This document shows, one piece after another, positions 15,497 through 29,807 of a stretch of 64,000 bases of DNA. Positions within the stretch are counted from its first letter, which is position 1; each line of letters opens with the position of its first letter. This stretch comes from Desulfoferula mesophila (lineage in GTDB: Bacteria; Desulfobacterota; Desulfarculia; Desulfarculales; Desulfarculaceae), in NCBI RefSeq assembly GCF_037076455.1, contig NZ_AP028679.1:1131501-1195500 (forward strand). Direction: 5' to 3'. The position numbers and the translations under genes are program-made. Below the pieces are notes generated by a model. It worked only from the letters and a program-made list of their open reading frames with translations, had not been told where the DNA came from and did not search any database.

Positions 15497-15632
15497 TGGC
15501 CGATATTTGCCGGTGTAACTATCTACAAAAACGTAACTTTGGGTGCGCGTTCCGCACTCGAATACGGTTTGTTTTTTGTTAGCAACCCCCGAGACCCTTA
15601 ATTTCAGATTTCGCCTTAAGGAGGATTTGACC

Positions 15633-16793
15633 ATGAAGTCGAGCAAGATTCTATGCCTGGTCCTGGGGCTCATGATGGCCCTGGCGGCCACCCCCGCCCT
15701 GGCCAAGGACACCGTCCAGGTGGCCTTTATCGGCCCCCTTACCGGCGGCGTGTCGGCCATCGGCGTGGGCGGGCGCAACTCGGCCGACCTGGCGGTGAGG
15801 CTGCGCAACGCGGACCCCAAGGCCAAGTACAAATATGAGCTGGTGGTGCTGGACGACGAGTGCAAGCCCAACGCCGGCGTGCAGGTGGCCACCAAGGCCG
15901 CGGCCGACAAGAAGATCATCGCCGCGGCCACCCAGTACTGCTCCGTGGTGGCCCTGGCCGCCGTGGACGTGTACCACCGCTTCGGCCTGCCGGTGATCGT
16001 GTGGGGCGCGGTGCATCCGGGCATCACCTACGGCAACACCTACAAGGAAGTCCACCGCATCAACGGCACCATGATCAACCAAAACGAGGTGGCCGCCAAG
16101 TTCGTGACCGGCCTGGGCTACAAGACCTGGGTGCTGCTTTATGACACCACCGATTACGGCAAGGGCATGTACGAGTACTTCTCCAAGTACTTGAAGCAAA
16201 ACGGCGGCAAGGTGCTGGGCAGCTTCGGGGTCAACGCCGACCAGCAGGACTTCACCGCCGAGCTGACCCAGGCCAAGAAGCTCAATCCCGACGTGATCTG
16301 GTTCGGCGGCCTGACTCCCCTGGGCGTGCGCATCCGTTTGCAGATGGACAAGCTGGGCATCAAATCCCAGTTCCAGAGCTGCTCGGGCATCATCTCCGAC
16401 GCCTTCATTACCGGCGCGGGTGAGCTGGCCGAGGGCACCATCGCCTTCCGCGAGGGCGAGCCGGTGGAAGACCTGCCCGGCGGCAAGTGGTTCCTGAAGG
16501 AATACGAGAAAGCCGGCTATAAGGAGGCTCCGGACGCTTTTGGTCCCTTCGCTTTCGCGGCCATGAACATGATCCTGGACGGCATCGAGGCGGCCGGCCC
16601 CAACCGCAAGGCGGTGGTCAAGTGGCTGTCCAACATCAAGGACTACAAGACCATCGTGGGCCAGGTCACCTTTGACGATCACGGCCAGAACATTTCGCCG
16701 GCTATCACCAAGTACGTGGTACAGGACGGCAAGTGGGTTCCCTGGAAGAGCTCCGAGTACGCCAGCGGAAAGCGCAAGCTCAAGAACCGCTAA
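15633..16793 (+). CDS. Branched-chain-amino-acid/amide-type ABC substrate-binding protein
   Basis: Periplasmic ligand-binding protein of the LivJ/Peripla_BP_6 family, 386 residues. A signal peptide (1-24, ending TPALA) precedes two alpha/beta lobes; the first strand VQVAFIGPLTGGVSAIG is characteristic. AAGGAGG 8 bases before ATG 15633 fixes the start, and an in-frame extension to 15543 has no such site. It heads an operon encoding two permeases, two ATPases, an M20 peptidase and a hydrolase. Members bind branched amino acids, amides, urea or aromatic acids; the ligand here is unknown. A hairpin after the gene probably keeps its message abundant. Confidence 0.92.
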   Translation: MKSSKILCLVLGLMMALAATPALAKDTVQVAFIGPLTGGVSAIGVGGRNSADLAVRLRNADPKAKYKYELVVLDDECKPNAGVQVATKAAADKKIIAAATQYCSVVALAAVDVYHRFGLPVIVWGAVHPGITYGNTYKEVHRINGTMINQNEVAAKFVTGLGYKTWVLLYDTTDYGKGMYEYFSKYLKQNGGKVLGSFGVNADQQDFTAELTQAKKLNPDVIWFGGLTPLGVRIRLQMDKLGIKSQFQSCSGIISDAFITGAGELAEGTIAFREGEPVEDLPGGKWFLKEYEKAGYKEAPDAFGPFAFAAMNMILDGIEAAGPNRKAVVKWLSNIKDYKTIVGQVTFDDHGQNISPAITKYVVQDGKWVPWKSSEYASGKRKLKNR

Positions 16794-16813
16794 CTGTTAT
16801 AATTGACCACCTG

Positions 16814-16840
16814 GGGGCGGCGCCGGTTCGGCGCCGCCCC
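16814..16840 (+). promoter_or_regulatory. Intercistronic hairpin after the binding-protein gene
   Basis: GGGGCGGCGCC and GGCGCCGCCCC form an 11-bp perfect stem with a 5-base loop between the binding-protein and first permease genes. There is no T tract. Such hairpins commonly raise the level of the binding-protein message above that of the membrane genes. Confidence 0.6.
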
Positions 16841-16887
16841 TCCGATGCGTACCGCCTGTAACCTATCAACCGCGAGATTGGCTTCCG

Positions 16888-17808
16888 ATGGATTTTGGAC
16901 TGATCGCCCAGCATATAGCCAACGGACTGATGATGGGGCTGATCTACGCTCTGGTGGCCGTGGGCTTCACCCTGTTCTTCGGGGTGCTGGACATCATAAA
17001 ATTCTCCCACGGCGACGTGCTTACCTGGGGCGTATTCACGGCCTTTTCCATGTACCTGTTGCTCACCTGGATGGGCCTGGGGCACCCGGTGGTGATTCTG
17101 GTCATCGTGGCCGTGGTGGCCATGGCGGCCATCGCCCTATTGGGCGCGGGCATCGCCAAGGTGCTGATCATCCCCTTGAAGGGCGCTCCGCCGCTCAACG
17201 TGCTCTTGATCACCCTCATGCTGGGCACGGTGCTGCGCGAGTCCATCCGCCTGTTCTATCCCGACGGGGCCAACCCCAAGCACTTCCCGGCCCTCTTGCC
17301 CGACTGGAGCTATAGCTGGGGTAACTTCACCTTGCGCTTCGACAACACGGTGATGCTCATCTCCGGCTTGCTCATGATCGTGCTGGTGCAGCTGCTCATC
17401 AAGCGCACCAAGCTGGGCATGGCCATCCGCGCGGTGTCTCAGGACGAGGAAACGGCCCGGCTCATGGGCATCAACTTCAACCTGGTGGTCTACATCACCT
17501 TTGCCCTGGGCTCGGCCCTGGCCGCCTTTGCCGGGGTGGCCTACGGCCTGTACTACAACGAGATAAACTTCAACATAGGCCTGTTGCTGGGGGCAATCGG
17601 CTTCAGCGCCGCGGCGGTGGGCGGTTTCGGCAACATCTACGGAGCCATCGTGGGCGGCTTCCTCTTCGCCCTGCTCCAGACCATAGGCGCGGCGGCCCTG
17701 CCTTTTGCCAGCGCCTACAAAGACGTTTTCGCCTTCGGGGTGGTCATCATCATCATGGCCATCAAGCCCACCGGGCTGTTGGGCGAAAAGGAAACGGAGA
17801 GGGTGTAG
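16888..17808 (+). CDS. LivH-type ABC permease
   Basis: First membrane subunit of the uptake system, 306 residues and about eight membrane segments. It shows the LivH hallmarks GLIYALVAVGFTLFFGVL near the N-terminus and the cytoplasmic coupling loop IRAVSQDEETARLMGIN (EAA-like). It lies 94 bases after the binding-protein gene, separated by the hairpin, and 2 bases before the second permease gene. It forms the translocation pore with that protein. Confidence 0.93.
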   Translation: MDFGLIAQHIANGLMMGLIYALVAVGFTLFFGVLDIIKFSHGDVLTWGVFTAFSMYLLLTWMGLGHPVVILVIVAVVAMAAIALLGAGIAKVLIIPLKGAPPLNVLLITLMLGTVLRESIRLFYPDGANPKHFPALLPDWSYSWGNFTLRFDNTVMLISGLLMIVLVQLLIKRTKLGMAIRAVSQDEETARLMGINFNLVVYITFALGSALAAFAGVAYGLYYNEINFNIGLLLGAIGFSAAAVGGFGNIYGAIVGGFLFALLQTIGAAALPFASAYKDVFAFGVVIIIMAIKPTGLLGEKETERV

Positions 17809-17810
17809 GC

Positions 17811-18971
17811 ATGACCGGTAGCACCCGCACCCCCGTATCCTTCCTGCCCGCCCTGGTGAGCATCCTCCTGGGCGCGGTGTACATGGTTTTCTTCCTGGCC
17901 GGCGAGTCCCAGTTGGAGATTTTCGGGCTGTTGCTGGGCGCCTGCCTGGTCCTGCTCCTGCTGCGCCGCTTCAAGATTTTGGAGCGGGTGGGCCGAAGCG
18001 CCAAGGACCACAGCATGGCCTTCGGCGCGGCGGCGGTGGCCGCCACGGTAGCCATCAGCCTGTACTTCTACGACGACAACTTCGTGCTGTTTTTGGTGGC
18101 TACGGTTTTGGTCTACACCCTGACCTGCCTGGGGCTCAACATCCAGTTCGGCTTCGTGGGGGTGGTCAACTTCGCGGGGGCCTCCTTCTTCGGGGTGGGC
18201 TGCTACACCGCGGCCATCCTGACCAAGCACACCGCCACTCCCCACCTTTTGGTGCTGCTGTTGGGCGGGCTGGCCGCGGCGGCCCTGGGCTTCATCGTGC
18301 TGGTGCCGGTGCTCAAGACCAGGGGACACTATTCCGCCCTGGTGACCATCGCCTTCGCCCTGCTGTTCAAGACCTTTTTGGAGGTCAACGACACCCTGGG
18401 CGGCCCCCAGGGGCTCAAGTGCGACGGCCTCAATCTCTTCGGCTGGAACGTTAACCAGGACATCGTCATCGGCTCCTTCGAGGGCTCTTTTTACCTGGGC
18501 TACATCGCGGTGGCCCTGGCCTTGTGCGTGCTGGGTTTCATCCTGGCCCGGCGCCTGGAAGACTCCTGGGTGGGCCTGAACATGGACGCGGTGCGCCTAG
18601 ACGAGACGGTGAGCGCCTGCTTCGGCCAGTCCATACCCAAGGCCAAGATCACCGCCTTCACCCTGGGCAACTTCTACTGCGGGGTGGCCGGGGCGCTGTT
18701 CGCCATGATGCTGGGTTACATCGCGCCCACCAACTTCACCTTCGGCGACTCGTTGATCCTGCTGTCCATAGTCATCCTGGGCGGCCTGGGCTCGCTGTGG
18801 GGGTCGGTGGCCGCCACCACCATCATCATCATCATGCCCGAGAAGTTCCAGATGCTCCAGGAATACCGCTTCCTGCTCTTCGCGGCCCTGGTCATCGCCA
18901 TCCTGTTGTTCCGGCCCCAGGGGCTTCTGCCGCGCCCCTTGCGCGCCTTCCTCACCCTGCGGTCTAGGTAG
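17811..18971 (+). CDS. LivM-type ABC permease
   Basis: Second membrane subunit, 386 residues. It is longer than LivH because of extra N-terminal membrane segments (residues about 10-80), as usual for LivM. The core shows TCLGLNIQFGFVGVVNFAGA and the C-terminal GGLGSLWGSVAATTIII. The coupling loop normally reading like RALRDNE is diverged here (LNMDAVRLDETVSACFGQS). It lies 2 bases after the LivH-type gene and 5 bases before the LivG-type gene. Confidence 0.92.
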   Translation: MTGSTRTPVSFLPALVSILLGAVYMVFFLAGESQLEIFGLLLGACLVLLLLRRFKILERVGRSAKDHSMAFGAAAVAATVAISLYFYDDNFVLFLVATVLVYTLTCLGLNIQFGFVGVVNFAGASFFGVGCYTAAILTKHTATPHLLVLLLGGLAAAALGFIVLVPVLKTRGHYSALVTIAFALLFKTFLEVNDTLGGPQGLKCDGLNLFGWNVNQDIVIGSFEGSFYLGYIAVALALCVLGFILARRLEDSWVGLNMDAVRLDETVSACFGQSIPKAKITAFTLGNFYCGVAGALFAMMLGYIAPTNFTFGDSLILLSIVILGGLGSLWGSVAATTIIIIMPEKFQMLQEYRFLLFAALVIAILLFRPQGLLPRPLRAFLTLRSR

Positions 18972-18976
18972 TTCCC

Positions 18977-19759
18977 ATGGAAGCAACCCAAAGCCTTCTC
19001 AGCATAAAGGGCCTGAGCAAGAACTTCGGCGGGGTGCGCGCCCTGGACGGCCTGGACCTGGAGGTGAGGCGCAACCGCATCATGGGCCTCATCGGGCCCA
19101 ACGGTTCGGGCAAGACCACCTTCTTCAACGTGGTCACCGGCATCTATCCGGCCAGCGCGGGCAGCGTGGTCTTGGAAGGCGAGGACATAACCAGCTTCTC
19201 GCCCCAACGGGTGTACCGCCGGGGGGTGGCCCGCACCTTCCAGCGCTCGCGCCTGCTGCTGCCCCTGTCCATCCTGGACAACATCACCCTGGGCGATCAT
19301 TCCCGGGTGAACAACGGGCTCATGTTCAACCTGTTCCGGCGAAAAGCCCTGACCCGCGAGTTTGAGCGCAGCCTGGAAAAGGCCCGGGAGCTTATCGGCA
19401 TCTTCGACCCGGAGTTGGCCTCCAACATTTTCGATCCGGTGGAGACCCTGCCCATGATCTCCCGGCGGCGCATCGAGATCTGCCGGGCGCTGATCGGCCA
19501 CCCCAAGCTCTTGCTGCTGGACGAACCCTCGGCGGGCATGACCCACGACGAGACTTTCCGGCTCATCGACGACATCCTGGAGATCAAGGAAAAGATCGAG
19601 GACTTGACCATAATCATCATCGAGCACGAGATGACGGTGATGGAGCGCATAACCGATCATTGCGCCGTGCTCAACTTCGGCGAGAAGATCTGCGAGGGCA
19701 GCTACCAGGAAGTGGCCGGCGACCCGCAGGTGCAAGAAGCCTACCTGGGGGTGGACTGA
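18977..19759 (+). CDS. LivG-type ABC ATPase
   Basis: ATPase of 260 residues. Walker A is GPNGSGKTTF and Walker B LLLDEPSAGM followed by the LivG-type helix THDETFRLIDDI. The ABC signature is unusual: where LivG proteins have LSYGxQR, this one reads MISRRRIEICRAL. The H-loop IIEHEMTVM is intact. The second ATPase has a normal signature, so the heterodimer can still form one complete catalytic site. The stop overlaps the next start by one base (TGATG). Confidence 0.92.
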   Translation: MEATQSLLSIKGLSKNFGGVRALDGLDLEVRRNRIMGLIGPNGSGKTTFFNVVTGIYPASAGSVVLEGEDITSFSPQRVYRRGVARTFQRSRLLLPLSILDNITLGDHSRVNNGLMFNLFRRKALTREFERSLEKARELIGIFDPELASNIFDPVETLPMISRRRIEICRALIGHPKLLLLDEPSAGMTHDETFRLIDDILEIKEKIEDLTIIIIEHEMTVMERITDHCAVLNFGEKICEGSYQEVAGDPQVQEAYLGVD

Positions 19760-20478
19760 TGGACCGGACGCAAGCCGCCCTGAGCATCGCCAACATCTAC
19801 ACGGCCTACGACCGGGCCGACGTGCTGGAGGATCTCTCCCTGGAGGTGGCCCCCGGTTCCATCACCTGCCTCTTGGGTTCCAACGGCTCGGGCAAGACCA
19901 GCCTGATCCGCTCCATCCTGGGCCTCACTCCCTGCCGGGCGGGCAAGATCACCCTCTACGGCCAAGACATCACCCGCCTGGCCACCCACAAGATCGTGCG
20001 CCTGGGCGTGGCCAGCATTCCCGAGGGGCGCAAGGTGTTTCCAGCCATGACCGTGGAGGAGAACCTGAGGCTGGGGGGCTATCAGGAGGACGACAAGGCG
20101 GTGGTCGCCCAGCGCCTGGAAAAGGTCTACGAGGTGTTTCCGCGCCTTTCCGAGCGGGCGGGCCAGCTGGCGGGCACCATGTCCGGCGGCGAGCAGGCCA
20201 TGGTCTCCATCGGCCGGGGCCTCATGGGAGCGCCCAAGCTGATGATCGTGGACGAGCCCTCCCTGGGGCTGTCGCCCCTATTGGTCAAGGAGAACTTCCG
20301 CATCATCCGCCAGATCAACGACCAGGGCATCACCGTGTTCCTGGTTGAGCAAAACGTGCGCCAGACCCTGGCCATAGCCCATTACGGCTACGTCCTTTCC
20401 AAGGGGCGGGTGGTGGCCCAGGGCAGCGCTCAATCCCTTCGAGACAATAGCGAGGTGCAGGAGGCCTACTTCGGCTGA
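19759..20478 (+). CDS. LivF-type ABC ATPase
   Basis: Second ATPase, 239 residues. Walker A is GSNGSGKTS, signature MSGGEQAMV, Walker B LMIVDEPSLGLSP and H-loop LVEQNVRQTL, all typical of LivF. ATG 19759 shares its A with the LivG-type stop codon, so translation is coupled; an upstream in-frame codon at 19660 lies inside livG and is not used. It is followed after 21 bases by the M20 peptidase gene. Confidence 0.93.
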   Translation: MDRTQAALSIANIYTAYDRADVLEDLSLEVAPGSITCLLGSNGSGKTSLIRSILGLTPCRAGKITLYGQDITRLATHKIVRLGVASIPEGRKVFPAMTVEENLRLGGYQEDDKAVVAQRLEKVYEVFPRLSERAGQLAGTMSGGEQAMVSIGRGLMGAPKLMIVDEPSLGLSPLLVKENFRIIRQINDQGITVFLVEQNVRQTLAIAHYGYVLSKGRVVAQGSAQSLRDNSEVQEAYFG

Positions 20479-20499
20479 GCCGCGCCCGGGAGCCAGAAA

Positions 20500-21630
20500 A
20501 TGTGTCCCATGCCCGACCCGGTAAAGATCGCCACCGACCTGATTTGCCTGGACACCATCAATCCCCCCGGCGGGGAGGAGGCCGCGGCCCGTTATCTGGG
20601 CGACCTGCTGGCCCAGCGCGGGCTGGCCACCGAGTATTACCAGCTGGAGCCCCATAGGTCCGGTTTGGTGGCCACGCTGGCCGGCACGGGAGGCCGCCCG
20701 GCCCTGGTGTTCACCGGCCACCTGGACACGGTGCCCCTGGGCAACGCGGCCTGGAGCTTCGGGCCCCATTGCGGCGAGGTGAAGGACGGCCGCCTGTTGG
20801 GCCGCGGCGCCTCGGACATGAAGAGCGGGGTGGCGGCCATGGCCGCCGCGGCCGCCGCCCTGGCCGAGGAGTGGGCGGGCGAGGCCGACCTGGTGTTCGT
20901 GTTCACCGCCGCCGAGGAGACCGGCTGTCAGGGGGCCGAGCAGATGGCCGCCGGCGGCAAGCTGCCCGCCCAGGCCGGGGCTCTTTTGGTGGCCGAGCCC
21001 ACCAACAACGTGCCCTTCCTGGGGCACAAGGGCGCCCTGTGGCTGGAGGCCACGGCCAGGGGCAAATCGGCCCACGGCTCCATGCCCGACATGGGCGACA
21101 ACGCCATCTACAAGGCGGCCCGGGCCGCCGCCGGGTTGGAGCAGCTATTCGCCGAGGCCCCGGCCCATACCCAGTTGGGCAAGCCCACGGTGAACGTGGG
21201 CACCTTCCACGGGGGCAGCAAGATCAACATGGTGCCCGACCAGGCGGTGTTCCAGGTGGACCTGCGCACCGTGCCCGGCGTGGAGCACGACGAACTGTTC
21301 GCGCGGGTGGCCGGCCAATTGGGCCCGGACATCGCCCTCGAGCGCCTCATCGACCTGCCCGGCTTCCTCACCCCGGCCGAGGAGCCCTGGGCCGCCCGGG
21401 TGCTGGCCCTGCTGGAGCGCGAGCAGGGCAGGCCTCCCCAGCCGGGATATGTCAACTACTTCACCGACGCCTCGGTGTTGCGGCCCGCCCTGGGCAACCC
21501 GCCCACGGTGATCCTGGGCCCGGGCCTGCCCGGCCAGGCCCACCAGACCAACGAGTTCTGCGAGACGGCCAAGATCGTCGAGGCCGCCGGGCTGTACCTG
21601 GCCCTGGCCCGCGAATGGCAGGGCCGCTAG
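20500..21630 (+). CDS. M20-family metallopeptidase (ArgE/DapE-like)
   Basis: Cytoplasmic two-zinc hydrolase of 376 residues. Metal ligands and catalytic residues are visible: His in FTGHLDTVPLG with the catalytic Asp two residues on, Asp in RGASDMKSGVAAM, the Glu pair in TAAEETG, Asp/Glu in VAEPTN and the late His in QAHQTNEF. The dimerisation lid lies about 180-290. M20 enzymes cleave N-acyl amino acids, carbamoyl groups or dipeptides. Its place 21 bases after the ABC genes suggests it deacylates the imported compound. ATG 20509 is an alternative start. Confidence 0.9.
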   Translation: MCPMPDPVKIATDLICLDTINPPGGEEAAARYLGDLLAQRGLATEYYQLEPHRSGLVATLAGTGGRPALVFTGHLDTVPLGNAAWSFGPHCGEVKDGRLLGRGASDMKSGVAAMAAAAAALAEEWAGEADLVFVFTAAEETGCQGAEQMAAGGKLPAQAGALLVAEPTNNVPFLGHKGALWLEATARGKSAHGSMPDMGDNAIYKAARAAAGLEQLFAEAPAHTQLGKPTVNVGTFHGGSKINMVPDQAVFQVDLRTVPGVEHDELFARVAGQLGPDIALERLIDLPGFLTPAEEPWAARVLALLEREQGRPPQPGYVNYFTDASVLRPALGNPPTVILGPGLPGQAHQTNEFCETAKIVEAAGLYLALAREWQGR

Positions 21631-21653
21631 GCCCGGCAAGTATAGGGGGGAAT

Positions 21654-22421
21654 ATGTGGCCTTCCACCTGGCAAGCTGAATCCGTGGGCCTGGCTACGCC
21701 GGACGCGGCCTTTGACCCCAACCTGCCCGATCTGCTGTGCGTGCACGGCTCCGGGGGGCGGGGGGCGGAGTTTCTGCCCCTGCTGGAGAGCCTGGTGGGC
21801 GCGGCCAACGGCGCGGGCATAGACCTGCCCGGCCACGGCGACACCCCCGGTCCGGGACGGGAGCGGGTGGAGGACTACGTGGCCTGGCTGGCTGAGCGCC
21901 TGGAGCAGGGCCGACGGCGGCCGGTGGTGCTGGGAAACTCCCTGGGCGGGGCCATCGCCCTGGGCCTGGCCCTGGAGCGGCCGGAGCTGATCGGCGGCAT
22001 CGTGCTCTGGGGCACCGGGGCCCGCCTGCGGGTGCTGCCCAAGATCCTGGAAGGCCTGGCCAAGGATTTCCAGCCCACGGTGGCCTTCCTGGCCCAGATG
22101 GCCTACGCCGAGGTCACCGACCCCCAGCGCAAGGAGACGGGCCGCTGGGCCATGGCCCGGACCGCGCCGGCCGTGCTTCTGGGCGACTACACCGCTTGCG
22201 ACCGTTTCGACGTTATGGAGCGCCTGGGCGAGATCGACTTGCCCTGTCTGGTGGTGTGCGGCGACGGCGACAGGCTCACCCCCCTCAAGTACAGCCAGTA
22301 CCTGACCGAGCACATCAAGGGCGCCCGCCTGGCGGTGATACCCGGCGCGGGCCACCTGATCCACGAGGAGCAGCCCTCGGCCGGGGCCAAGGTATTGGCC
22401 GAGTTTTTGGCCACCCTGTAA
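21654..22421 (+). CDS. Alpha/beta hydrolase
   Basis: A 255-residue alpha/beta-hydrolase. The oxyanion-hole region is LLCVHGSGGRGAEF, the nucleophile S96 is in GNSLGG, the acid is D206 (or D204) in GDGDRLTPL and the base is H234 in GAGHLIHEE. A GGGGGG box precedes ATG 21654; the long open frame running back to 20769 is the antisense-phase shadow of the peptidase gene. As last gene of the operon it may hydrolyse an ester, lactone or amide taken up by the transporter. It ends 12 bases from a convergent gene with no terminator visible. Confidence 0.88.
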   Translation: MWPSTWQAESVGLATPDAAFDPNLPDLLCVHGSGGRGAEFLPLLESLVGAANGAGIDLPGHGDTPGPGRERVEDYVAWLAERLEQGRRRPVVLGNSLGGAIALGLALERPELIGGIVLWGTGARLRVLPKILEGLAKDFQPTVAFLAQMAYAEVTDPQRKETGRWAMARTAPAVLLGDYTACDRFDVMERLGEIDLPCLVVCGDGDRLTPLKYSQYLTEHIKGARLAVIPGAGHLIHEEQPSAGAKVLAEFLATL

Positions 22422-22433
22422 GCCGGGCGCGAA

Positions 22434-24281
22434 TCAGTCCCCGTCCTCCGGAAAAGCCAGGCTACGGGCGAACAGCGTGTTGAACAGCGGTTCGCCGGAT
22501 AGCTCCACGTAACGGGCCTTGGCCGGGATCTCGGCGGCCCGTTGCCGGGCCTCCAGGTTGTTGAGCACCTGTTGGGCCCCCCGGCCCGCCGCATTGCCCA
22601 CCTGGGCGTACTTGGCCCCGGCCACGGCGGGGATCAGGCCGATGCGCTTGGCGGTGTCCACGTCGATGTGGCTGCCAAAGGAACCGGCCAGCACCACCTC
22701 GGAAAGATCGGAAGGCTCCAGCCCGGCCAGGGAGAGCAGGGTGGCGGCGGCCGCGCAGATGGCCGCCTTGGCCAGCTGCACCTGGCTGATGTCCGCCTGG
22801 GTGACCACGATGTCCTGGCCCGTGGCCGAGCGCTCGGCCGGCACCAGCACGTAGCTGATGTTGCGGCCGTCGCGGCGTACCTGGGGCAGTGAGCGGTCCA
22901 GGTGGCCCCGGGAGTTGATGACCCCGGCCCGGAGCATCTCGGCCACCGCGTCGATGATGCCCGAACCGCACACCCCGGCGGGATCGGATCCGTCGATGGT
23001 GGTGCACACCGGCTCCTGCTCCGCCGTAAGGCGCACCTGGGAGATGGCCCCGGTCATGGCCCGCATGCCCGAGCTGAGGTGGGCGCCCTCGAAGGTGGGG
23101 CCCGAGGGGGCCGAGGCGATGAACAGGGGATGGCGGTGGCCCGGCGCGGTCACCACCACCTCGGTGTTGGTGCCGATGTCCAGGCCCAGGCGGCAGGGGC
23201 CGGGCCGGTCCAGGTCCGCGCCCATGATCATGGCCACGTTGTCCGCGCCCACGAAACCGCCCACCAGGGGAGGCAGGTGCACGTAGGCCCCGGGGGCCAG
23301 GCTCAGGCCCAGCTCCCTCGCCTTGACGTCCACCGCTTGATCCAGGCAGGCCACAAAGGGCGGCGCGCCCAGCTGCTCCAGGGGCAGGCCCAGCAGCAGG
23401 TGGGTCATGGCGCTGTTGCCCACCAGGCTCATCTCGGCTATGCGGCCGGTATCGGCCCCCACCGCGGCGGCCAGGTCCTGGGCCAGGCCGTTCAGGGCGC
23501 GGCGCACCAGGTCGGTGAGCCGTCTCCCCTCCTTGGGCTGGCTAATGGCCAGCTGCAAGCGGGTGACCACGTCGGCCCCGAAGGCGACCTGGGGGTTGAG
23601 GCGTCCCCGGGAGGCGATGATTTCGCCGGTGGCCAGGTCCACCAAATAGGCGGCCAGCTTGGTGGAGCCCAGGTCCACGGCCAGGCCCAAGGGGCCTTGG
23701 CCCGGCCCGGCCACGCCCACCAATTCCTCGCCGCGTTGATACAGGCTCAGGCTCCAGGCATGCTCGCGGGCCGCGCGGGTGATCCCGGCGGCGGTGGCCA
23801 GATCGGCCCGGGAAGCGGGCGACTCCTCGTGCTCGCCCAACGTCTCCAGCACCCGGCGCAGGTCGCCCCGAGGGTCTTGCAGGGTGGGCTCGGGCGCTTG
23901 GCACTCCACGGCGGTGATCACCGGGCTGCCCATGGGTACGGGCTCCAGATCGCCCTGGTCGATGCGCCAACTGCTGTCGGCGCTCTCGTGGGTGTCGGGC
24001 ACCGCGACTTCCAGCGAGCCCAAAACCTGGGTCTGGCAGGCCAGACGCCAGCCCCCGGCCAACTGCTCCGAATCCAGCAGGCGCTCCTCCGCCTGGTTGG
24101 GCGGCGACACCTCGCCCCGCACCGACACCAGACAACGGCCGCAGGTGCCCTTGCCTCCGCAATCCAGGGGCAAAAAGATGCCCGCTTGGAGCATGGCCTC
24201 GGTGATGAGGGTGCCCCGGGGCACCGAGGCGCTCTGCCCCGAAGGCTTGAATACGACGTTTAACTTGGCTGGAGCGCTCAA
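22434..24281 (-). CDS. Corrinoid reductive activator (RACo/RamA-type, 2Fe-2S plus ASKHA domain)
   Basis: ATP-dependent activator that reduces Co(II) corrinoid protein back to the active Co(I) state. The N-terminal plant-type 2Fe-2S domain has C41, C47, C50 and C82 (CGGKGTCGRC then LACQ). A linker follows, then a large ASKHA-like ATPase domain of DUF4445 type (LAVDLGSTKLAAYLVDL, GNSAMTHLLL, LDIGTNTEVVV, VCGSGIIDAVAEML). Start: a TTG at 24281 has GGGAGG 6 bases upstream; an ATG at 24308 is poorly spaced, and the open frame back to 24389 runs into a terminator hairpin. It serves the methyltransferase operon upstream. Confidence 0.93.
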   Translation of the reverse strand: MSAPAKLNVVFKPSGQSASVPRGTLITEAMLQAGIFLPLDCGGKGTCGRCLVSVRGEVSPPNQAEERLLDSEQLAGGWRLACQTQVLGSLEVAVPDTHESADSSWRIDQGDLEPVPMGSPVITAVECQAPEPTLQDPRGDLRRVLETLGEHEESPASRADLATAAGITRAAREHAWSLSLYQRGEELVGVAGPGQGPLGLAVDLGSTKLAAYLVDLATGEIIASRGRLNPQVAFGADVVTRLQLAISQPKEGRRLTDLVRRALNGLAQDLAAAVGADTGRIAEMSLVGNSAMTHLLLGLPLEQLGAPPFVACLDQAVDVKARELGLSLAPGAYVHLPPLVGGFVGADNVAMIMGADLDRPGPCRLGLDIGTNTEVVVTAPGHRHPLFIASAPSGPTFEGAHLSSGMRAMTGAISQVRLTAEQEPVCTTIDGSDPAGVCGSGIIDAVAEMLRAGVINSRGHLDRSLPQVRRDGRNISYVLVPAERSATGQDIVVTQADISQVQLAKAAICAAAATLLSLAGLEPSDLSEVVLAGSFGSHIDVDTAKRIGLIPAVAGAKYAQVGNAAGRGAQQVLNNLEARQRAAEIPAKARYVELSGEPLFNTLFARSLAFPEDGD

Positions 24282-24339
24282 GGTATTCCTCCCTGCGGCT
24301 ATAGTCATATCCCTCTTGGGGGAATGGGGCAAGAAAAGG

Positions 24340-24391
24340 AAATGGCCCGCCAAACTAGAGAGGAGGGTAGAGAGGGTCTGGCGGGCCATTT
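24340..24391 (-). terminator. Rho-independent-type terminator of the methyltransferase operon
   Basis: AAATGGCCCGCCA and TGGCGGGCCATTT form a 13-bp perfect stem with a 26-base loop. On the minus strand it is followed by CCTTTTCTTG. It separates the URO-D-type methyltransferase gene from the activator gene, so the activator may be partly uncoupled or expressed by read-through. Confidence 0.6.
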
Positions 24392-24532
24392 GATCGGCTC
24401 GGGGAGGCGAGCCGTTTTGGGTCGTCGCTGCTTGGTTGATAACCGGTCCGGGGAGGCGCGCCGCCCTGATGAACTATACAAGGCTGCTGGTGCGGCGGGC
24501 GCGCGTCCCGCCCCGGGCCGGGTGTTTGGTTC

Positions 24533-25867
24533 CTAGTACTTGCCGTAATGTTTGCCGGCCTCTATGAAGGCCTGCATGGTGGCGTCCTTGGCCTCGTCCA
24601 TGGCGCAGCCGATGCTGAGCATGTAGCCCTTGTCGCCGGCCGCGTCGTCGATGAGCTTCTTGGTCGCTTCCTTGACCTGCTCCGGGGTGCCGGTGAGGAT
24701 CAGGGAAATGGGGAAGCCGCCGGCGATGCACACCTTGCCGCCCAAAACTTCGCGGGCCTTGGCCATGTCGGTGCGGTCGAACAGGTACATGCTGCGGATG
24801 TCGCTGGTGTCGGCCAGGTATTCCAGGCGCTGGTTGTAGGCGCCCTCCACGAAGCAACAAGGCACGCAGCCGGCGTCGGCCAGCCCGTACATGACCTCCT
24901 TCAAGGTGGGCCAGTAGAACTTCTGGAACTGCTCGTCGGACATGAAGCCGTCGGCACCCTTGTGCAGGGGGATGAACACCAGGGGGTTGCCGTTGGCCAC
25001 CGCGCCGTCCACGCCGTTTTTGATCATGGGCGGCACCAGGCGCTCCACCGCTTCCAGCACCTTTTCGGGGCGCCGGTACATGTCCATCATCAGGGAGGTG
25101 GTGCCGCGGAAGGAGTCGCTGAGGGTGTCGAAGGGGGCCTTGGTGGCGCCGCCCGCCCCGAAGGGGAAGCCCGCGGCCATGATTTGGGCCATGTAGGCGC
25201 CCATGGCGTTGATCCACTCGAAGTACTGCTTACCGGCCTTGAGCAGGGCCTGCATGGCCTCCTGCACCGGCGGGGTGCCCAGGGAGATGAGCCATGGGCT
25301 GAGCATGGGCAGCTCCATGCTGCCGTATACCGGCTGCAGGTCGGCCAGGGGGGCCAGGGCGCCCATGGTCTTGGGAATCCAGGAGCGCAGCCAGAAGTCC
25401 GTGGGGTCGTTGATCAGGTGATCGTACTCCTCGGCCTTCATGTACTCTTTTTCGTTGAACTGGTAGGAGAGGTTTTCGGCCACTCCGTGGCCCGGCCACT
25501 TGTACAGGTGGTAGTCCAGGGTGTCCAGGGCCTGACCGCAACCCAGCATGGGGGCGGCGCCGGCGGTGTCGGGCTGGTACTTGTTGCAGAAATCCACGTA
25601 GGCCTGGCCCGCCTTGTCCGGGTCGTACATGGCGTCGCGGCCGCTGACCCCGGCCAGCATGGTGGGGGCGAAGGTGGTCAGGGGCATGATGGGCACCCGC
25701 TTGATGCCCTGATCGATTTTAAGGGCCGAAGCCACCAGTCCGGCGCGCTCCTTATAGGCGGCCTTGGCCTCCTCGCCGGCGAACTCGATGCCGTCCGCCG
25801 AGACCCACATGTCCAAAAAGGCGTCCTGACGCTCGATGGACGTGAGTTTGTCGAATCCTTCAAACAT
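24533..25867 (-). CDS. URO-D-family corrinoid methyltransferase
   Basis: A 444-residue protein of the uroporphyrinogen-decarboxylase fold, the family that includes MtaA/MtbA and the vanillate methyltransferase MtvB. It probably moves a methyl group from an outside donor to the corrinoid protein encoded upstream. Visible landmarks are FPFGAGGATKAPFDTLSDSF, the FVEGAYNQRLEYL motif of methyltransferase-type members and KVCIAGGFP near the C-terminus. Cysteines in GCVPCCFVEG and KVCIAGG are candidate zinc ligands. It sits 39 bases after the corrinoid gene and ends the operon. Which methyl donor is used (methoxyaromatic or other) cannot be read from sequence. Confidence 0.85.
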   Translation of the reverse strand: MFEGFDKLTSIERQDAFLDMWVSADGIEFAGEEAKAAYKERAGLVASALKIDQGIKRVPIMPLTTFAPTMLAGVSGRDAMYDPDKAGQAYVDFCNKYQPDTAGAAPMLGCGQALDTLDYHLYKWPGHGVAENLSYQFNEKEYMKAEEYDHLINDPTDFWLRSWIPKTMGALAPLADLQPVYGSMELPMLSPWLISLGTPPVQEAMQALLKAGKQYFEWINAMGAYMAQIMAAGFPFGAGGATKAPFDTLSDSFRGTTSLMMDMYRRPEKVLEAVERLVPPMIKNGVDGAVANGNPLVFIPLHKGADGFMSDEQFQKFYWPTLKEVMYGLADAGCVPCCFVEGAYNQRLEYLADTSDIRSMYLFDRTDMAKAREVLGGKVCIAGGFPISLILTGTPEQVKEATKKLIDDAAGDKGYMLSIGCAMDEAKDATMQAFIEAGKHYGKY

Positions 25868-25906
25868 GATTCCCTCCGGGAAAGTGTGGTTTGCGCGAAC
25901 GTCCGG

Positions 25907-26551
25907 TTAGCTCAGCCAGCCCTTGATGTAGTTGACGCCCACCACGGCGTCGGTGACGTAGGCGTCGGCGCCCACGTAGTTGCACACCTGCTCGTCCATC
26001 TGGCCGCCGCCGATGAGCACCTTGATCTTGTCCCTGAGGCCCTGCTCCTCGAGCTTGTCCACCACCGCCTTCATGGGGTCGAAGGCCAGGGTCAACAGGC
26101 CGCTGAGGCCGATTACGTCGGCGCCGAAAGCCTGGGCCTCGGCAATGATGGTTTCGGCCGGCACGTCCACCCCGATGTCCTTGACCTCCAGGCCGTTCAA
26201 GTCGAGCATCATGGAGGCGATGTTCTTGCCGATGTCGTGGATGTCGCCCTGCACGGTGGCCATGAGCACCTTGCCCAGCTTCTTCTGACCGCCACTGGCC
26301 GAGGTCTCCTCGGACAAATGGGGCTTGAGAATCTCCGAGGCGGCCTTCATCATCTCGCCGGACATGATCAGCTCGGGGATGAAGTAAAGCTGCTTTTCAA
26401 AGCGCTTGCCGATCTCCTCCAATGCTTCCTGGTAGCAGTTGAATATGTCCAACGCCGGGACGCCCTCGTCCAGGTATTTGTTGGTCAATTCCATGGCGGT
26501 GTCTTCTTGCATTTCCACCACCGCGGTGAATAGATCCTTCAAATCAGCCAT
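25907..26551 (-). CDS. Corrinoid (B12-binding) methyl-carrier protein
   Basis: Methyl carrier of the MtaC/MtvC type, 214 residues. A four-helix cap (residues 1-88) precedes the B12-binding Rossmann domain. The lower cobalt ligand is H95 in GDIHDIGKN; other cofactor motifs are VIGLSGLLT and LIGGGQMD. It lies between the pterin methyltransferase gene (18 bases upstream) and the URO-D-type methyltransferase gene, the usual order for three-part methyl-transfer systems. A second carrier is encoded at 29106. Confidence 0.94.
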   Translation of the reverse strand: MADLKDLFTAVVEMQEDTAMELTNKYLDEGVPALDIFNCYQEALEEIGKRFEKQLYFIPELIMSGEMMKAASEILKPHLSEETSASGGQKKLGKVLMATVQGDIHDIGKNIASMMLDLNGLEVKDIGVDVPAETIIAEAQAFGADVIGLSGLLTLAFDPMKAVVDKLEEQGLRDKIKVLIGGGQMDEQVCNYVGADAYVTDAVVGVNYIKGWLS

Positions 26552-26569
26552 TACAACCCTCCAAATGGT

Positions 26570-27379
26570 CTAGTCGTTTTTCGGTCCGATACGGCCGGAG
26601 CGATAGGCCCGGCTGAAATTTTGGCAGTACTTGTCCTTGCCCATGAGCATCTCCGAGGCCAACAACACGCTCATCAGGTTGCGGTCGTTGGGGTCGATGA
26701 TGGCGCTGTCGAGGCCCACCTGGATGCACATGGCCATGAAAGTCTGGTTGATCAAGGAGCGCAGAGGCATGCCAAAGGATATGTTGCTCAGTCCGCAGGT
26801 GATGTGCGCCTTGGGATATGCCGCGCGGGTCTGCGCGATGCTGTCGTAGGTCACCAGGGCGTTGTCGGTGCCCGTGCTGATGGCCGTTACCAACGGGTCC
26901 ACGAAAAGCTGCTCTTCGGCCAATCCGCCGTCCTTGGCCAGGCCCACCAGCCGGTGCACGATCTCCATGCGCTCGGCCGCGGTGTCGGCGATGCCCACCT
27001 GGTCGTCCAGGGCCAGGAGGATCAGGCCGGTCTTGTGTTCCAGGGCCAGGGGCAGGACGTTTTCGATGCGGGGCTTCTCCCCGCTGACCGAGTTGATGAT
27101 GGGGGTTTTGTTGACCAGTTCCAGCCCGGCCTTGAGGGCCGCGGGGTTGGCGCTGTCCAAACAAAGGGGCGCCTCGGTGGCCTCTTGGATGGTGTTCACC
27201 AGCCAGGCCATGTCCTCGGGCTCGCGCTCGGGGGAGGTGCCGGCGTTCACGTCCAGGTAGTTGCTGCCCGCCTCCACCTGGCTCTGGGCCAAGTCCTTGA
27301 TGAACTGGGCGTCACGCTCTCTTATGGCCGCGCTTACCTTTTTGCGGGTGCCGTTTATCTTTTCGCCGATGATTATCAT
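26570..27379 (-). CDS. Methyltetrahydrofolate:corrinoid methyltransferase (AcsE/MtvA-like)
   Basis: Pterin-binding TIM-barrel enzyme of 269 residues. It would move the methyl group between the corrinoid protein and tetrahydrofolate, feeding the Wood-Ljungdahl methyl branch. Family motifs in order: IIIGEKINGTRKKV, NYLDVNAGTS, PLCLDSANPAAL, PIINSVSGEK, LFVDPLVTAIST and CGLSNISFGMPLR, whose Asn corresponds to the pterin-activating Asn of AcsE. Length and motifs are complete. It is second in the operon after DUF1638. Confidence 0.92.
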   Translation of the reverse strand: MIIIGEKINGTRKKVSAAIRERDAQFIKDLAQSQVEAGSNYLDVNAGTSPEREPEDMAWLVNTIQEATEAPLCLDSANPAALKAGLELVNKTPIINSVSGEKPRIENVLPLALEHKTGLILLALDDQVGIADTAAERMEIVHRLVGLAKDGGLAEEQLFVDPLVTAISTGTDNALVTYDSIAQTRAAYPKAHITCGLSNISFGMPLRSLINQTFMAMCIQVGLDSAIIDPNDRNLMSVLLASEMLMGKDKYCQNFSRAYRSGRIGPKND

Positions 27380-27397
27380 CTATATTCCTCGCTCTCG

Positions 27398-28045
27398 CTA
27401 GAACATGGGGATGGGAGTGCCGGGCGGGGCCACGATGAACTCCGGCCCGTCCCATGGCCCATGCAGCAATTTATCCAATAGCCCCAACTCCTTGGTCAGG
27501 CGGGCGAAGCCCATGTCGTGGGCCTGGGCCAGATGGCGACAGCGCTCTTCGGCCTCGGGGTCGGATTCTTCGCCGTCCAAGAGCACCAGACGATCGTAGT
27601 GCTTCAGGGCCACCTTGAGCAGTTGCGCGCGCCGCTCTTGGGGAATATGGTCCAGGCCCTTTTTGATCTGATCAAAGATGTTCAGCTCGGTGTCGAGCCA
27701 GCGCGGGTCCAGGAAGTAGCTGCCGGGGTGTTGGTTCAGGACCTGCCGGTGCCGGTCGCGCGAACCCAGGAGCATGCCCACGCAGTCGTCCACCTTGGGC
27801 AGAACCAGGGTGCTCTTTTGCGATTGCACTCCTTCCAAGGCGCGGCCGCACAAGCCATAGCCCATGAGGATGGTCCCGCCCTCGTGCTCCAGATCGGCCA
27901 CGGTTTGCATCAACACCTGGCGCAGCCGTTCGGGTTGCAGGTGCAGGGCGATGTCCAACTGGGTGATGGCTTCGTCGCCGCCCAAGAGCCCGGCCACCAC
28001 CGGGGCCAAGGCCCGACAAGTAATTATTTGGTGCTCAAAAGGCAT
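27398..28045 (-). CDS. DUF1638-family protein
   Basis: A 215-residue soluble protein matching the DUF1638 pattern as I recall it: an early Cys (IITCRAL), the YGLCGRALEG loop and a Cys in DDCVGMLLGS, followed by PGSYFLDPRW. Function is unknown. In methanogens and sulfate reducers such genes often sit beside corrinoid methyltransferase genes, as here. It is the first gene of the operon, divergent from the GntR gene, and 18 bases ahead of the pterin methyltransferase gene. The conserved cysteines suggest metal or thiol chemistry. Confidence 0.78.
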   Translation of the reverse strand: MPFEHQIITCRALAPVVAGLLGGDEAITQLDIALHLQPERLRQVLMQTVADLEHEGGTILMGYGLCGRALEGVQSQKSTLVLPKVDDCVGMLLGSRDRHRQVLNQHPGSYFLDPRWLDTELNIFDQIKKGLDHIPQERRAQLLKVALKHYDRLVLLDGEESDPEAEERCRHLAQAHDMGFARLTKELGLLDKLLHGPWDGPEFIVAPPGTPIPMF

Positions 28046-28071
28046 CGCGCGTTTCTCTCTGGTGTATCCTT

Positions 28072-28105
28072 GACTCTTATATTATTATAGTCTTATAGAA
28101 GAGTC
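28072..28105 (-). promoter_or_regulatory. AT-rich inverted repeat, candidate GntR operator/promoter
   Basis: GACTCTT (28072-28078) and AAGAGTC (28099-28105) are inverted repeats flanking a TATAAT-containing core read on the minus strand. The element lies 27-60 bases upstream of the DUF1638 ATG, inside an otherwise GC-rich region and opposite the GntR gene. This is a likely regulated promoter for the methyltransferase operon. The -35 is weak. Confidence 0.45.
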
Positions 28106-28318
28106 CACCCCAAAAATGAAAAAAGTGAGGCTCCATTCATGGCCTGGAAGGTATTTGTGTGATAAGGTATTGTAAAATATGGTCTTTAAAGGATAGGCGA
28201 TTTTGTATGTATTTTCCAAGGGGGGGAGGGGAAGCGCGGCTAGGCCGTGGTTTCGCTGTTGCAAGGCCGGCCGGGCAGGCTATCGTGGCCGCCTTGCCGG
28301 GCTACCTATGGAGCGCTG

Positions 28319-29113
28319 GTGTTGAAAGCGGATTCTAAAAAGGGCCCCAACGGCGTGAGCGCCCCCCTGGTGGTCGCCAAGGCCATCGACAAAAGCTCGC
28401 GCATGCCCGCCTACGCCCAGATGGCCGACATCCTGCGCTCCAGCATCTCCCAAGGCGAATATCCCCCCGGCGCCAGGCTCCCCGCCGAGTCGGCCCTGGC
28501 CAAGGCCTACGGAGTGAGCGCCATGACCGCCCGTCAGGCGGTGAGCGTGCTGGAAGAGGAAGGGCTGGTGCGCCGGGTCCAGGGCAGCGGCACCTACGTG
28601 CGCAAGGTGGGCGTGGCGGCCAGCAACTTCGGCCTGGAGGCCCTGGGCGGCATTCTGGCGGACCGGGACAACCTCCAGGTGCGCATCGTCAAGGCCGCGG
28701 TGAAGAAGACGCCGGGGGTGGAAAAGGAAGTCTTGGGCCTGAAGCCCAACGAGCCGGTAATCGTGGTGGAAAGGGTGATTTCCCACCGCAACGAGCCCTT
28801 CACGCTGCATATTTCCTACACCAGCTTCGATCCCACCTCGCCCACCGTGGAGTCCATGCTGGACACCGTGGTGCTTACCGGGCTCATCTTCCAAGAGGGC
28901 TATTCCAAATTCAAACGGGGAGCCCTGCGCCTGATGCCCGCCCTGTTGGACGCCCGGGAGGCCGGGCTGTTGAAGTTGCCGGAGGGCGCGCCGGTTTTCA
29001 AGTTGGAGCATCTTTTCTACGACTTTGACAACCGGCCCACCGCTTTTGGCTGGTTCCTGGTAAGCCACGAAAAAATGCCCCTTTTAAGCAAGGTAGGAGT
29101 CTGGGATGAATGA
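28319..29113 (+). CDS. GntR-family regulator with UTRA domain (HutC subfamily)
   Basis: DNA-binding effector sensor, 264 residues. A winged helix (about 25-100: MADILRSSISQGEYPPGARL, AKAYGVSAMTARQAVSVLE, VQGSGTYV) is followed by a UTRA ligand domain (about 115-260). GGAG 5 bases before GTG 28319 supports that start; TTG 28322 is possible. It diverges from the methyltransferase operon and overlaps the following corrinoid protein gene by 8 bases. It probably controls both directions and senses the methylated substrate or a product. Confidence 0.9.
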   Translation: MLKADSKKGPNGVSAPLVVAKAIDKSSRMPAYAQMADILRSSISQGEYPPGARLPAESALAKAYGVSAMTARQAVSVLEEEGLVRRVQGSGTYVRKVGVAASNFGLEALGGILADRDNLQVRIVKAAVKKTPGVEKEVLGLKPNEPVIVVERVISHRNEPFTLHISYTSFDPTSPTVESMLDTVVLTGLIFQEGYSKFKRGALRLMPALLDAREAGLLKLPEGAPVFKLEHLFYDFDNRPTAFGWFLVSHEKMPLLSKVGVWDE

Positions 29114-29807
29114 CGTGCCCGAGCGCCGGGAGCTTGAACCGCGGCTTGAGCGGCTGGTAACCATGGTTACGCAGTTGCGCGAGGAAGACTGCCTTGCCGA
29201 GTTGCAGAAAATGCTGGACCAGGGGGTGGATCCCAAGATCCTTCTGGAATGCTTCATGGAGGGCATGCGCCGCATCGGCGCGGAATTCGAGGCGGGCAAC
29301 TATTTCATCGCCGCGCTGATCATGGCCGGGGAGATCATGCGCTCGGCCATGGAGTTATTGAGCCCCTATCTGGCCTCCGATCAAACGGAAGCCCAAGGGG
29401 GGACCATCGTCCTGGGCACCATCCAGGGCGATATCCACGACCTGGGCAAGAACCTCTTCGCCCTGCTGCTCCAGTGCCACGGGTTCAAGGTCGTCGACCT
29501 GGGGGTGGACGTGCCCGGTGAGGAGTTTCTGCGCAAGGCCTTGGAGACGGGGCCCGAGGTGGTGGGCATAAGCTGCGTTTTGACCACCAGCGTGGAGAAC
29601 CTCAAAGAGGCGGTGGCCCTTTTGAAGCGCGAGTTGCCCCAGCCCCAGCCGGCCATCGTGATCGGGGGCACCTGCCTGGACGAGCAGATGGCCCGCTACG
29701 TGGGCTCGGCCCTGTGGGCCAGCGATGCCGCCGCCGGTTTGAAGATCTGCCAAAAAGTCCTGCGCGAGCCCGCCCCAGGCGGCGGGGTGATCGCCTTTCA
29801 GGATTAG
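29106..29807 (+). CDS. Second corrinoid (B12-binding) protein
   Basis: A 233-residue corrinoid protein of the MtaC/MtvC type. Helical cap 1-95, B12 domain with H111 in GDIHDLGKN, then VVGISCVLTTS and IVIGGTCLD. It is diverged from the carrier at 25907 and has no partner methyltransferase of its own. The ATG lies inside the end of the GntR gene (ATGAATGA, 8-base overlap), so translation is coupled to the regulator. It could be an alternative methyl carrier or a cobalamin-state sensor working with GntR. Confidence 0.92.
   Translation: MNDVPERRELEPRLERLVTMVTQLREEDCLAELQKMLDQGVDPKILLECFMEGMRRIGAEFEAGNYFIAALIMAGEIMRSAMELLSPYLASDQTEAQGGTIVLGTIQGDIHDLGKNLFALLLQCHGFKVVDLGVDVPGEEFLRKALETGPEVVGISCVLTTSVENLKEAVALLKRELPQPQPAIVIGGTCLDEQMARYVGSALWASDAAAGLKICQKVLREPAPGGGVIAFQD

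Follow-up and report, generated by a model that had tools for sequence, protein, structure and literature searches.

A GntR regulator paired with a second corrinoid protein at a UroD-type corrinoid methyl-transfer operon of Desulfoferula mesophila

Here, we report a regulator-linked corrinoid protein beside a corrinoid methyl-transfer operon of Desulfoferula mesophila (Desulfobacterota), found in a 64,000-nucleotide (nt) stretch of its complete genome of 4,479,191 bases (contig NZ_AP028679.1, positions 1,131,501 to 1,195,500, forward strand; this whole stretch is called the window, and feature positions refer to it). Divergent from the operon lie a GntR/HutC-type regulator with a UTRA domain (GntR; 28247..29113, plus strand; PF00392 4.2e-21, PF07702 3.6e-12) and a second corrinoid protein (CP2; 29106..29807, plus strand; PF02310 2.1e-20, PF02607 9.2e-15), the gene of which overlaps the GntR stop by 8 bp. 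The divergent position of GntR is kept in relatives. This GntR-CP2 pair is what is new about the system. On balance, and with some reserve, we lean towards reading the locus as a corrinoid-dependent demethylation operon under a GntR-corrinoid protein sensor pair, CP2 being a co-regulator and not the carrier of the pathway.

The operon itself (22434-28045, all minus strand) is a real, conserved locus. Its five open reading frames, in order of transcription, encode a DUF1638 protein, a methyltetrahydrofolate (methyl-H4F):corrinoid protein methyltransferase (MT2), the catalytic corrinoid protein (CP), a URO-D superfamily methyl donor:corrinoid protein methyltransferase (MT1), and a reductive activase (RACo). 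The original prediction had described this full set in one run, and Pfam/NCBIfam matches bear out all five genes. The bounds that it gave to the locus hold for the five reading frames but leave out GntR and CP2, which are part of the same conserved locus; the motif in the shared promoter region was overlooked as well.

Many corrinoid methyltransferase sets of anaerobes lack an assigned donor, and, according to the accessible text of PMC13222342, little of their regulation has been explored. With a corrinoid protein coupled to a GntR regulator, there is a specific idea, open to experiment, of how such an operon senses substrate or cofactor, and the pair signature, together with a candidate operator motif, could be used to find further methyl-utilisation gene sets.

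Results and discussion

GntR genes were searched with a profile of eight GntR proteins in 395 genomes of the phylum, methyltransferases being ignored, which returned 46 places. A corrinoid gene lay directly downstream of 25 of the 27 GntR genes at or above 180 bits and of none of the 19 weaker ones (5 of these had less than 900 nt left to the contig end). Over the loci fetched, 48 of 50 distinct GntR genes had CP2 downstream (exceptions, L030 and L150; GntR identical over the last 150 residues counted once; gap limit, −200 to 900 nt), and these loci came from Desulfobacterota, Chloroflexota, Bacillota, and other groups.

A tree of 129 corrinoid proteins was built from the 48 GntR-linked CP2 and 81 MT1-linked CP. 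One clade (SH-aLRT, 100) took 43 of the 48 CP2 and none of the 81 MT1-linked proteins, and the labels changed 3 times on the tree, compared with 38.6 times in shuffles. CP2 and CP have the cobalamin-binding core in common, and DxHxxG occurs in 45/48 CP2 and 78/81 CP, whereas a GLRD motif is present in 67/81 CP and only 2/48 CP2. Distances between GntR proteins across 28 four-gene loci correlated with those of CP2 at 0.90, of CP at 0.79, and of MT1 at 0.52 (partial correlations with GntR, 0.78 for CP2 and 0.46 for CP). As a separate observation, the GntR-linked CP2 at L121, L122, and L123 (same-class genomes) have lost DxHxxG, and no methyl-transfer gene was recognised near by.

Some GntR-CP2 pairs stand in fetched stretches that hold no MT1 or MT2 (e.g., L135 and L138). 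A pair without a neighbouring methyltransferase would be odd for a carrier and is not odd for a regulatory module, so these loci favour a regulatory module. CP2 also shares one trait with AerR-type co-regulators: it is a stand-alone B12-binding protein of MetH-like type, and its gene accompanies that of a DNA-binding regulator.

The shared promoter region holds a 14-mer, TATAGTCTTATAGA (28086..28099, plus strand), that is a candidate GntR operator as judged from its sequence and position. Its distance to the DUF1638 start is 45 bp, and a second TCTTATA lies 16 nt away (28075-28081); the genome has a single exact copy of the 14-mer, and 100 window shuffles gave none. Among 46 upstream regions of GntR genes (those of less than 200 nt excluded), GTCTTATAGA was present in 9; in ten shuffled sets, the most frequent 10-mer was present in 3 or 4. 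The motif stands 22 to 75 bp before DUF1638 in orthologous loci. L145 has split operons; there, one copy sits in the interval from GntR-CP2 to DUF1638 and a second in that from RACo to the MT2 operon, the layout one would expect for a regulon. The operator of the HutC-type regulator SdhR, TCTTATGTCTTATATAAGACATAAGA, contains the same element (PMC4494728, accessible part). A simple scan of 28000-28360 gave no sigma-70-type promoter, and no cobalamin riboswitch or other Rfam RNA reached gathering thresholds in 14000-36000. A one-mismatch copy of the motif elsewhere in the genome (G000:C1:4341825) was rejected as a further site; its neighbouring genes match no model of this system.

Several observations weigh against a sensor pair acting through this site. 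Two of the 27 GntR genes of the subfamily lack CP2, five CP2 fall outside the CP2 clade (all Bacillota), and three are without DxHxxG. The CP2 and CP correlations differ by only 0.11 with a jackknife standard error of 0.06, so that the difference is suggestive. The motif is found mainly in loci of Desulfobacterota; in loose form it totals 40 over all loci, compared with 31 for a scrambled control, and allowing up to 2 mismatches gives 3 genome sites, compared with 5 for the reversed pattern. Because the loose motif is not enriched, it is the exact site and its position that support an operator.

CP2 might instead carry methyl groups as CP does, serving the same MT1 or a different one, and stand beside GntR because GntR regulates itself. 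The retained cobalamin core, DxHxxG in nearly all CP2, and the many loci with MT1 and MT2 near by would suit a carrier, but the clade that excludes every MT1-linked CP, the loss of GLRD, the pairs without local MT1 or MT2, and the near-obligate coupling to one GntR subfamily all speak for something else, and we think a carrier unlikely. Returning to a co-regulatory CP2, a wider role is conceivable, although we hold it less firmly than the reading of this locus: a dedicated CP2 clade, together with one GntR/UTRA subfamily in several anaerobe phyla, might read the methylation or corrinoid state and switch methyl-donor operons, including where the pair lies apart from methyltransferase genes. If true, this would be a B12-based, light-independent regulatory module of anaerobic methyl metabolism in which a methyl carrier was recruited as a signal protein.

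To our knowledge, CrtJ, the regulator with which AerR acts, is not a GntR/UTRA protein. The accessible part of PMC9144470, which deals with AerR-CrtJ (PpaA-PpsR) and CarH, describes AerR as likewise a free-standing MetH-type B12-binding protein that modulates a DNA-binding regulator; it differs in being a light sensor, and contact between GntR and CP2 is here only proposed. In Eubacterium limosum SA11, MTTB genes usually lie near B12-binding proteins, transporters, and GntR regulators (PMC4791908), a neighbourhood remark of one sentence that, in the portion of that paper available, comes with no proposal of a pairing, clade, operator, or function. A literature search from which subscription papers and bioRxiv preprints were mostly absent found no paper describing a GntR-corrinoid protein pair.

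Within the operon, spacers among the first four genes are 18, 18, and 39 nt, and 143 nt separate MT1 from the listed RACo reading frame. Because relatives have these genes together at orthologous loci (MT1 identity, 72 to 85% among the matches listed), the set is not a chance assembly; the 85% match belongs to Dethiosulfatarculus sandiegensis (NZ_AZAC01000016.1), a species of the same family, which has an orthologous operon (L026). MT2 (26570..27379, minus strand) matches Pterin_bind (PF00809 5.9e-24) and scores 329.8 bits against PRK07535, the model for methyl-H4F:corrinoid methyltransferases (cut-off, 259), and is annotated as such on this match. CP (25907..26551, minus strand) is a separate corrinoid protein with DxHxxG, the GLRD motif, and B12-binding and B12-binding_2 domains (PF02310 and PF02607), and would be the methyl carrier.

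The predicted RACo/RACE-type ATP-dependent corrinoid reductive activase (22434..24389, minus strand) combines RACo_C_ter (PF14574 4.7e-75), PF17651, PF17650, and PF00111 with an N-terminal 2Fe-2S (Fer2) domain; judged from shorter relatives, its true start is probably near 24308. The DUF1638 protein, encoded by the first gene (27398..28045, minus strand; PF07796 1.3e-34), is probably a helper of corrinoid (re)activation. In Phaeobacter, the fitness of a DUF1638 gene co-varies with a split methionine synthase and a RamA-like activator (PMC5764234, accessible text). H35, C66, D86, D87, and C88 are invariant in 20 DUF1638 homologues and C10 is nearly so, a His/Cys/Asp set that looks like a metal site. 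A confident structure model (pLDDT, 91.4) had no clear fold match (Foldseek best E, 0.012; VIA best Z, 5.7), so no function was drawn from it.

MT1 (24533..25867, minus strand) is matched by the URO-D Pfam model over profile positions 140-344 only (PF01208 1.5e-20) and falls far below every named model, as it does not reach the cut-offs of mtaA_cmuA (TIGR01463, 41.5 bits; cut-off, 235.4), MtaA (26.8 bits; cut-off, 400), or MtbA (26.2 bits; cut-off, 600). Membership in the MtaA, MtbA, or mlp groups was thereby ruled out. The statement that this URO-D protein can be assigned to no donor thus stands, but MtaA and MtbA, which had been listed among donor enzymes for comparison, are by their NCBIfam names acceptor-side coenzyme M methyltransferases. 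Heme-biosynthetic HemE, which the original prediction had set against its own proposal, is also ruled out: TIGR01464 gave 24.5 bits (cut-off, 302.95), and a family profile built from nine MT1 members gave 4.3e-65 for the chloromethane enzyme CdmB and 2.2e-7 for the best HemE.

CdmB was the first match of MT1 among solved structures (phmmer 8.4e-29; 27% identity over 255 residues) and the nearest characterised protein found, in a comparison that had the sequences of MtvB, OdmB, VdmB, and MtoB outside it. An AlphaFold model of MT1 (pLDDT, 95.5) has the UroD/MtaA fold (MtaA 4ay8, Z 27.5; HemE, Z 27.4); CdmB was absent from the rows listed in the structure searches, for which its entry may be too new. 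In an MT1 tree with CdmB and HemE (46 rows after thinning of sequences more than 62% identical), the window protein sits inside a well-supported group of close kin, and long branches leave the positions of CdmB and of the window protein's paralogue unsure.

The family is broad, with at least 384 relatives, 80 of which were kept from Desulfobacterota, Bacillota, Chloroflexota, Asgard archaea, and others, and patchy, with a match in 9 of the 21 genomes of the order. No donor assignment was found for this URO-D family, and, judged by sequence family, the enzyme set joins the UroD-type three-component systems (the Mtv/Odm/Mto/Cdm kind) as a new member. A match on a Sporomusa termitida plasmid was rejected as an O-demethylase reference, its neighbours being FAD oxidoreductase and MFS genes with no annotated CP or MT2. 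Asgard relatives of MT1 with 44% identity adjoin corrinoid proteins on Jordarchaeum and Lokiarchaeota contigs (L051 and L052).

Two MT1 residues bear on the donor. H302 is kept in 109/110 and E341 in 107/110 family members, while CdmB has W and Q there. Both follow directly on model strands (296-301 and 335-340), that is, at the ends of barrel strands, which would put them on the catalytic face of the TIM barrel. Such a polar pair, perhaps metal-binding, may fit an oxygen-bearing donor better. With the ligand positions of MtaA as reference, the HxC cysteine column presumably corresponds to E341, and C422 of MT1 is not conserved in the family.

We tentatively suggest that the donor is an O-methyl compound, for example a methoxylated aromatic. 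In L016/L025, L017/L026, L018, and L027, MT1 and RACo are separated by a gene for an outer-membrane protein of PF13557, a family whose name refers to phenol degradation, and in Desulfacinum infernum (L037) such a gene is found near MT1; the calls rest on Pfam for three loci and on our own profile for the others. The window operon is without this gene of its relatives, which weakens the case for an aromatic donor; other PF13557 proteins of the genome match less well, and none is adjacent to the operon.

Another donor class, such as a methylated sulfur or selenium compound, a quaternary amine, or another methyl ester or ether, is somewhat less probable. Family members and GntR-CP2 pairs have differing transporters in their neighbourhood (MFS, branched-chain-type binding proteins, and TRAP), so donors probably differ between family members, and a search of the genome for an MTTB-type MT1 found none, which would leave quaternary amines without another known route. 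Against sulfur and selenium compounds, the His-Cys-Cys zinc triad of the corresponding methyltransferases, as given in the accessible text of PMC10418091, is not evident in MT1.

Use of haloalkanes such as chloromethane, as by CdmB, appears improbable. CdmB is the nearest characterised protein found, and the UroD superfamily may have evolved haloalkane use on several occasions, but identity is low, H302 and E341 are replaced in CdmB, and the CdmB cavity is hydrophobic and metal-free. The authors place this haloalkane enzyme next to MtoB and the O-demethylases, so kinship with it leaves the donor unfixed (superfamily history, cavity, and placement from the available part of PMC13222342).

Least probable is a biosynthetic or corrinoid-upkeep role in the manner of a split methionine synthase or RdhUVW: methionine synthesis in Phaeobacter needs DUF1638, RACo, and CP (PMC5764234), and Desulfitobacterium RdhUVW, a CP, URO-D, and MT2 set, goes with organohalide respiration (PMC9888536; both papers as far as accessible), but none of eight scanned proteins has a homocysteine methyltransferase domain, a dedicated regulator is present, and distribution is patchy.

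The host genome contains dsrA (582.6 bits, above the cut-off), FTHFS, six MTHFR-like matches, and one acetyl-CoA synthase match. Since these are present, coupling of methyl oxidation to sulfate reduction is possible, and the earlier suggestion that the host does so is plausible from gene content. The genome also encodes five RACo-type activators and four B12-binding_2 proteins, two of which are CP and CP2.

Computation gives the gene identities, the conservation of the locus, the distinct CP2 clade, the coupling of GntR to CP2, and the promoter motif. The biochemical steps, DNA binding, and sensor role that we infer would run as follows. RACo, with help of some kind from DUF1638, would reduce the cobalt of CP to Co(I); MT1 would methylate CP at the expense of a small donor; and MT2 would pass the methyl group from CP to tetrahydrofolate. 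Methyl-H4F could then be used for acetyl-CoA or be oxidised by the Wood-Ljungdahl route run in reverse, sulfate receiving the electrons. GntR/UTRA would repress or activate the operon through the TCTTATA motif in the shared promoter region, and CP2, by analogy with AerR-CrtJ, may bind corrinoid and report the methyl or corrinoid state (donor or cofactor at hand) to GntR.

Among known systems, CdmBCA of Acetobacterium dehalogenans is alike in having a URO-D-type MT1, a separate CP, an H4F-type MT2, and an external activating enzyme (PMC13222342). It differs in its MT1, which lacks the invariant His and Glu, and neither a GntR-CP2 pair nor DUF1638 is described for it in the accessible text of that paper. 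The MtvABC, OdmABCD, and MtoABCD O-demethylases share the four-part architecture, a likeness drawn from descriptions and not from MT1 sequence. The Mto operon also holds an MFS transporter and a transcriptional regulator, but no regulator-paired second corrinoid protein is described in the available part of PMC8630106. MtaA, MtbA, and Mlp have the same fold as MT1, though MT1 is far below their family cut-offs, and mlp clusters by definition exclude an H4F methyltransferase, which this operon has. The roseobacter split methionine synthase and MtgBCD sets share CP, an MT2-type protein, DUF1638, and a RACo-type (RamA-like) activator; in place of a URO-D protein, they have a homocysteine or glycine betaine methyltransferase as fourth component (PMC5764234 and PMC12478193, accessible portions).

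Additional observations

A second corrinoid system of the host, made up of a URO-D protein, an MT2-corrinoid fusion, and RACo, is present in two near-identical copies (G000:C1:2738402-2742714 and 3395530-3399839; L002, L003, and L172). In one copy, the URO-D frame is shorter and follows an IS3-type transposase-like reading frame (identified by eye), and the RACo match contains one TAA. Tail to tail with the operon, 15543-22421 holds a branched-chain-type ABC transporter set and an M20-like peptidase (both named by eye) and an alpha/beta hydrolase.

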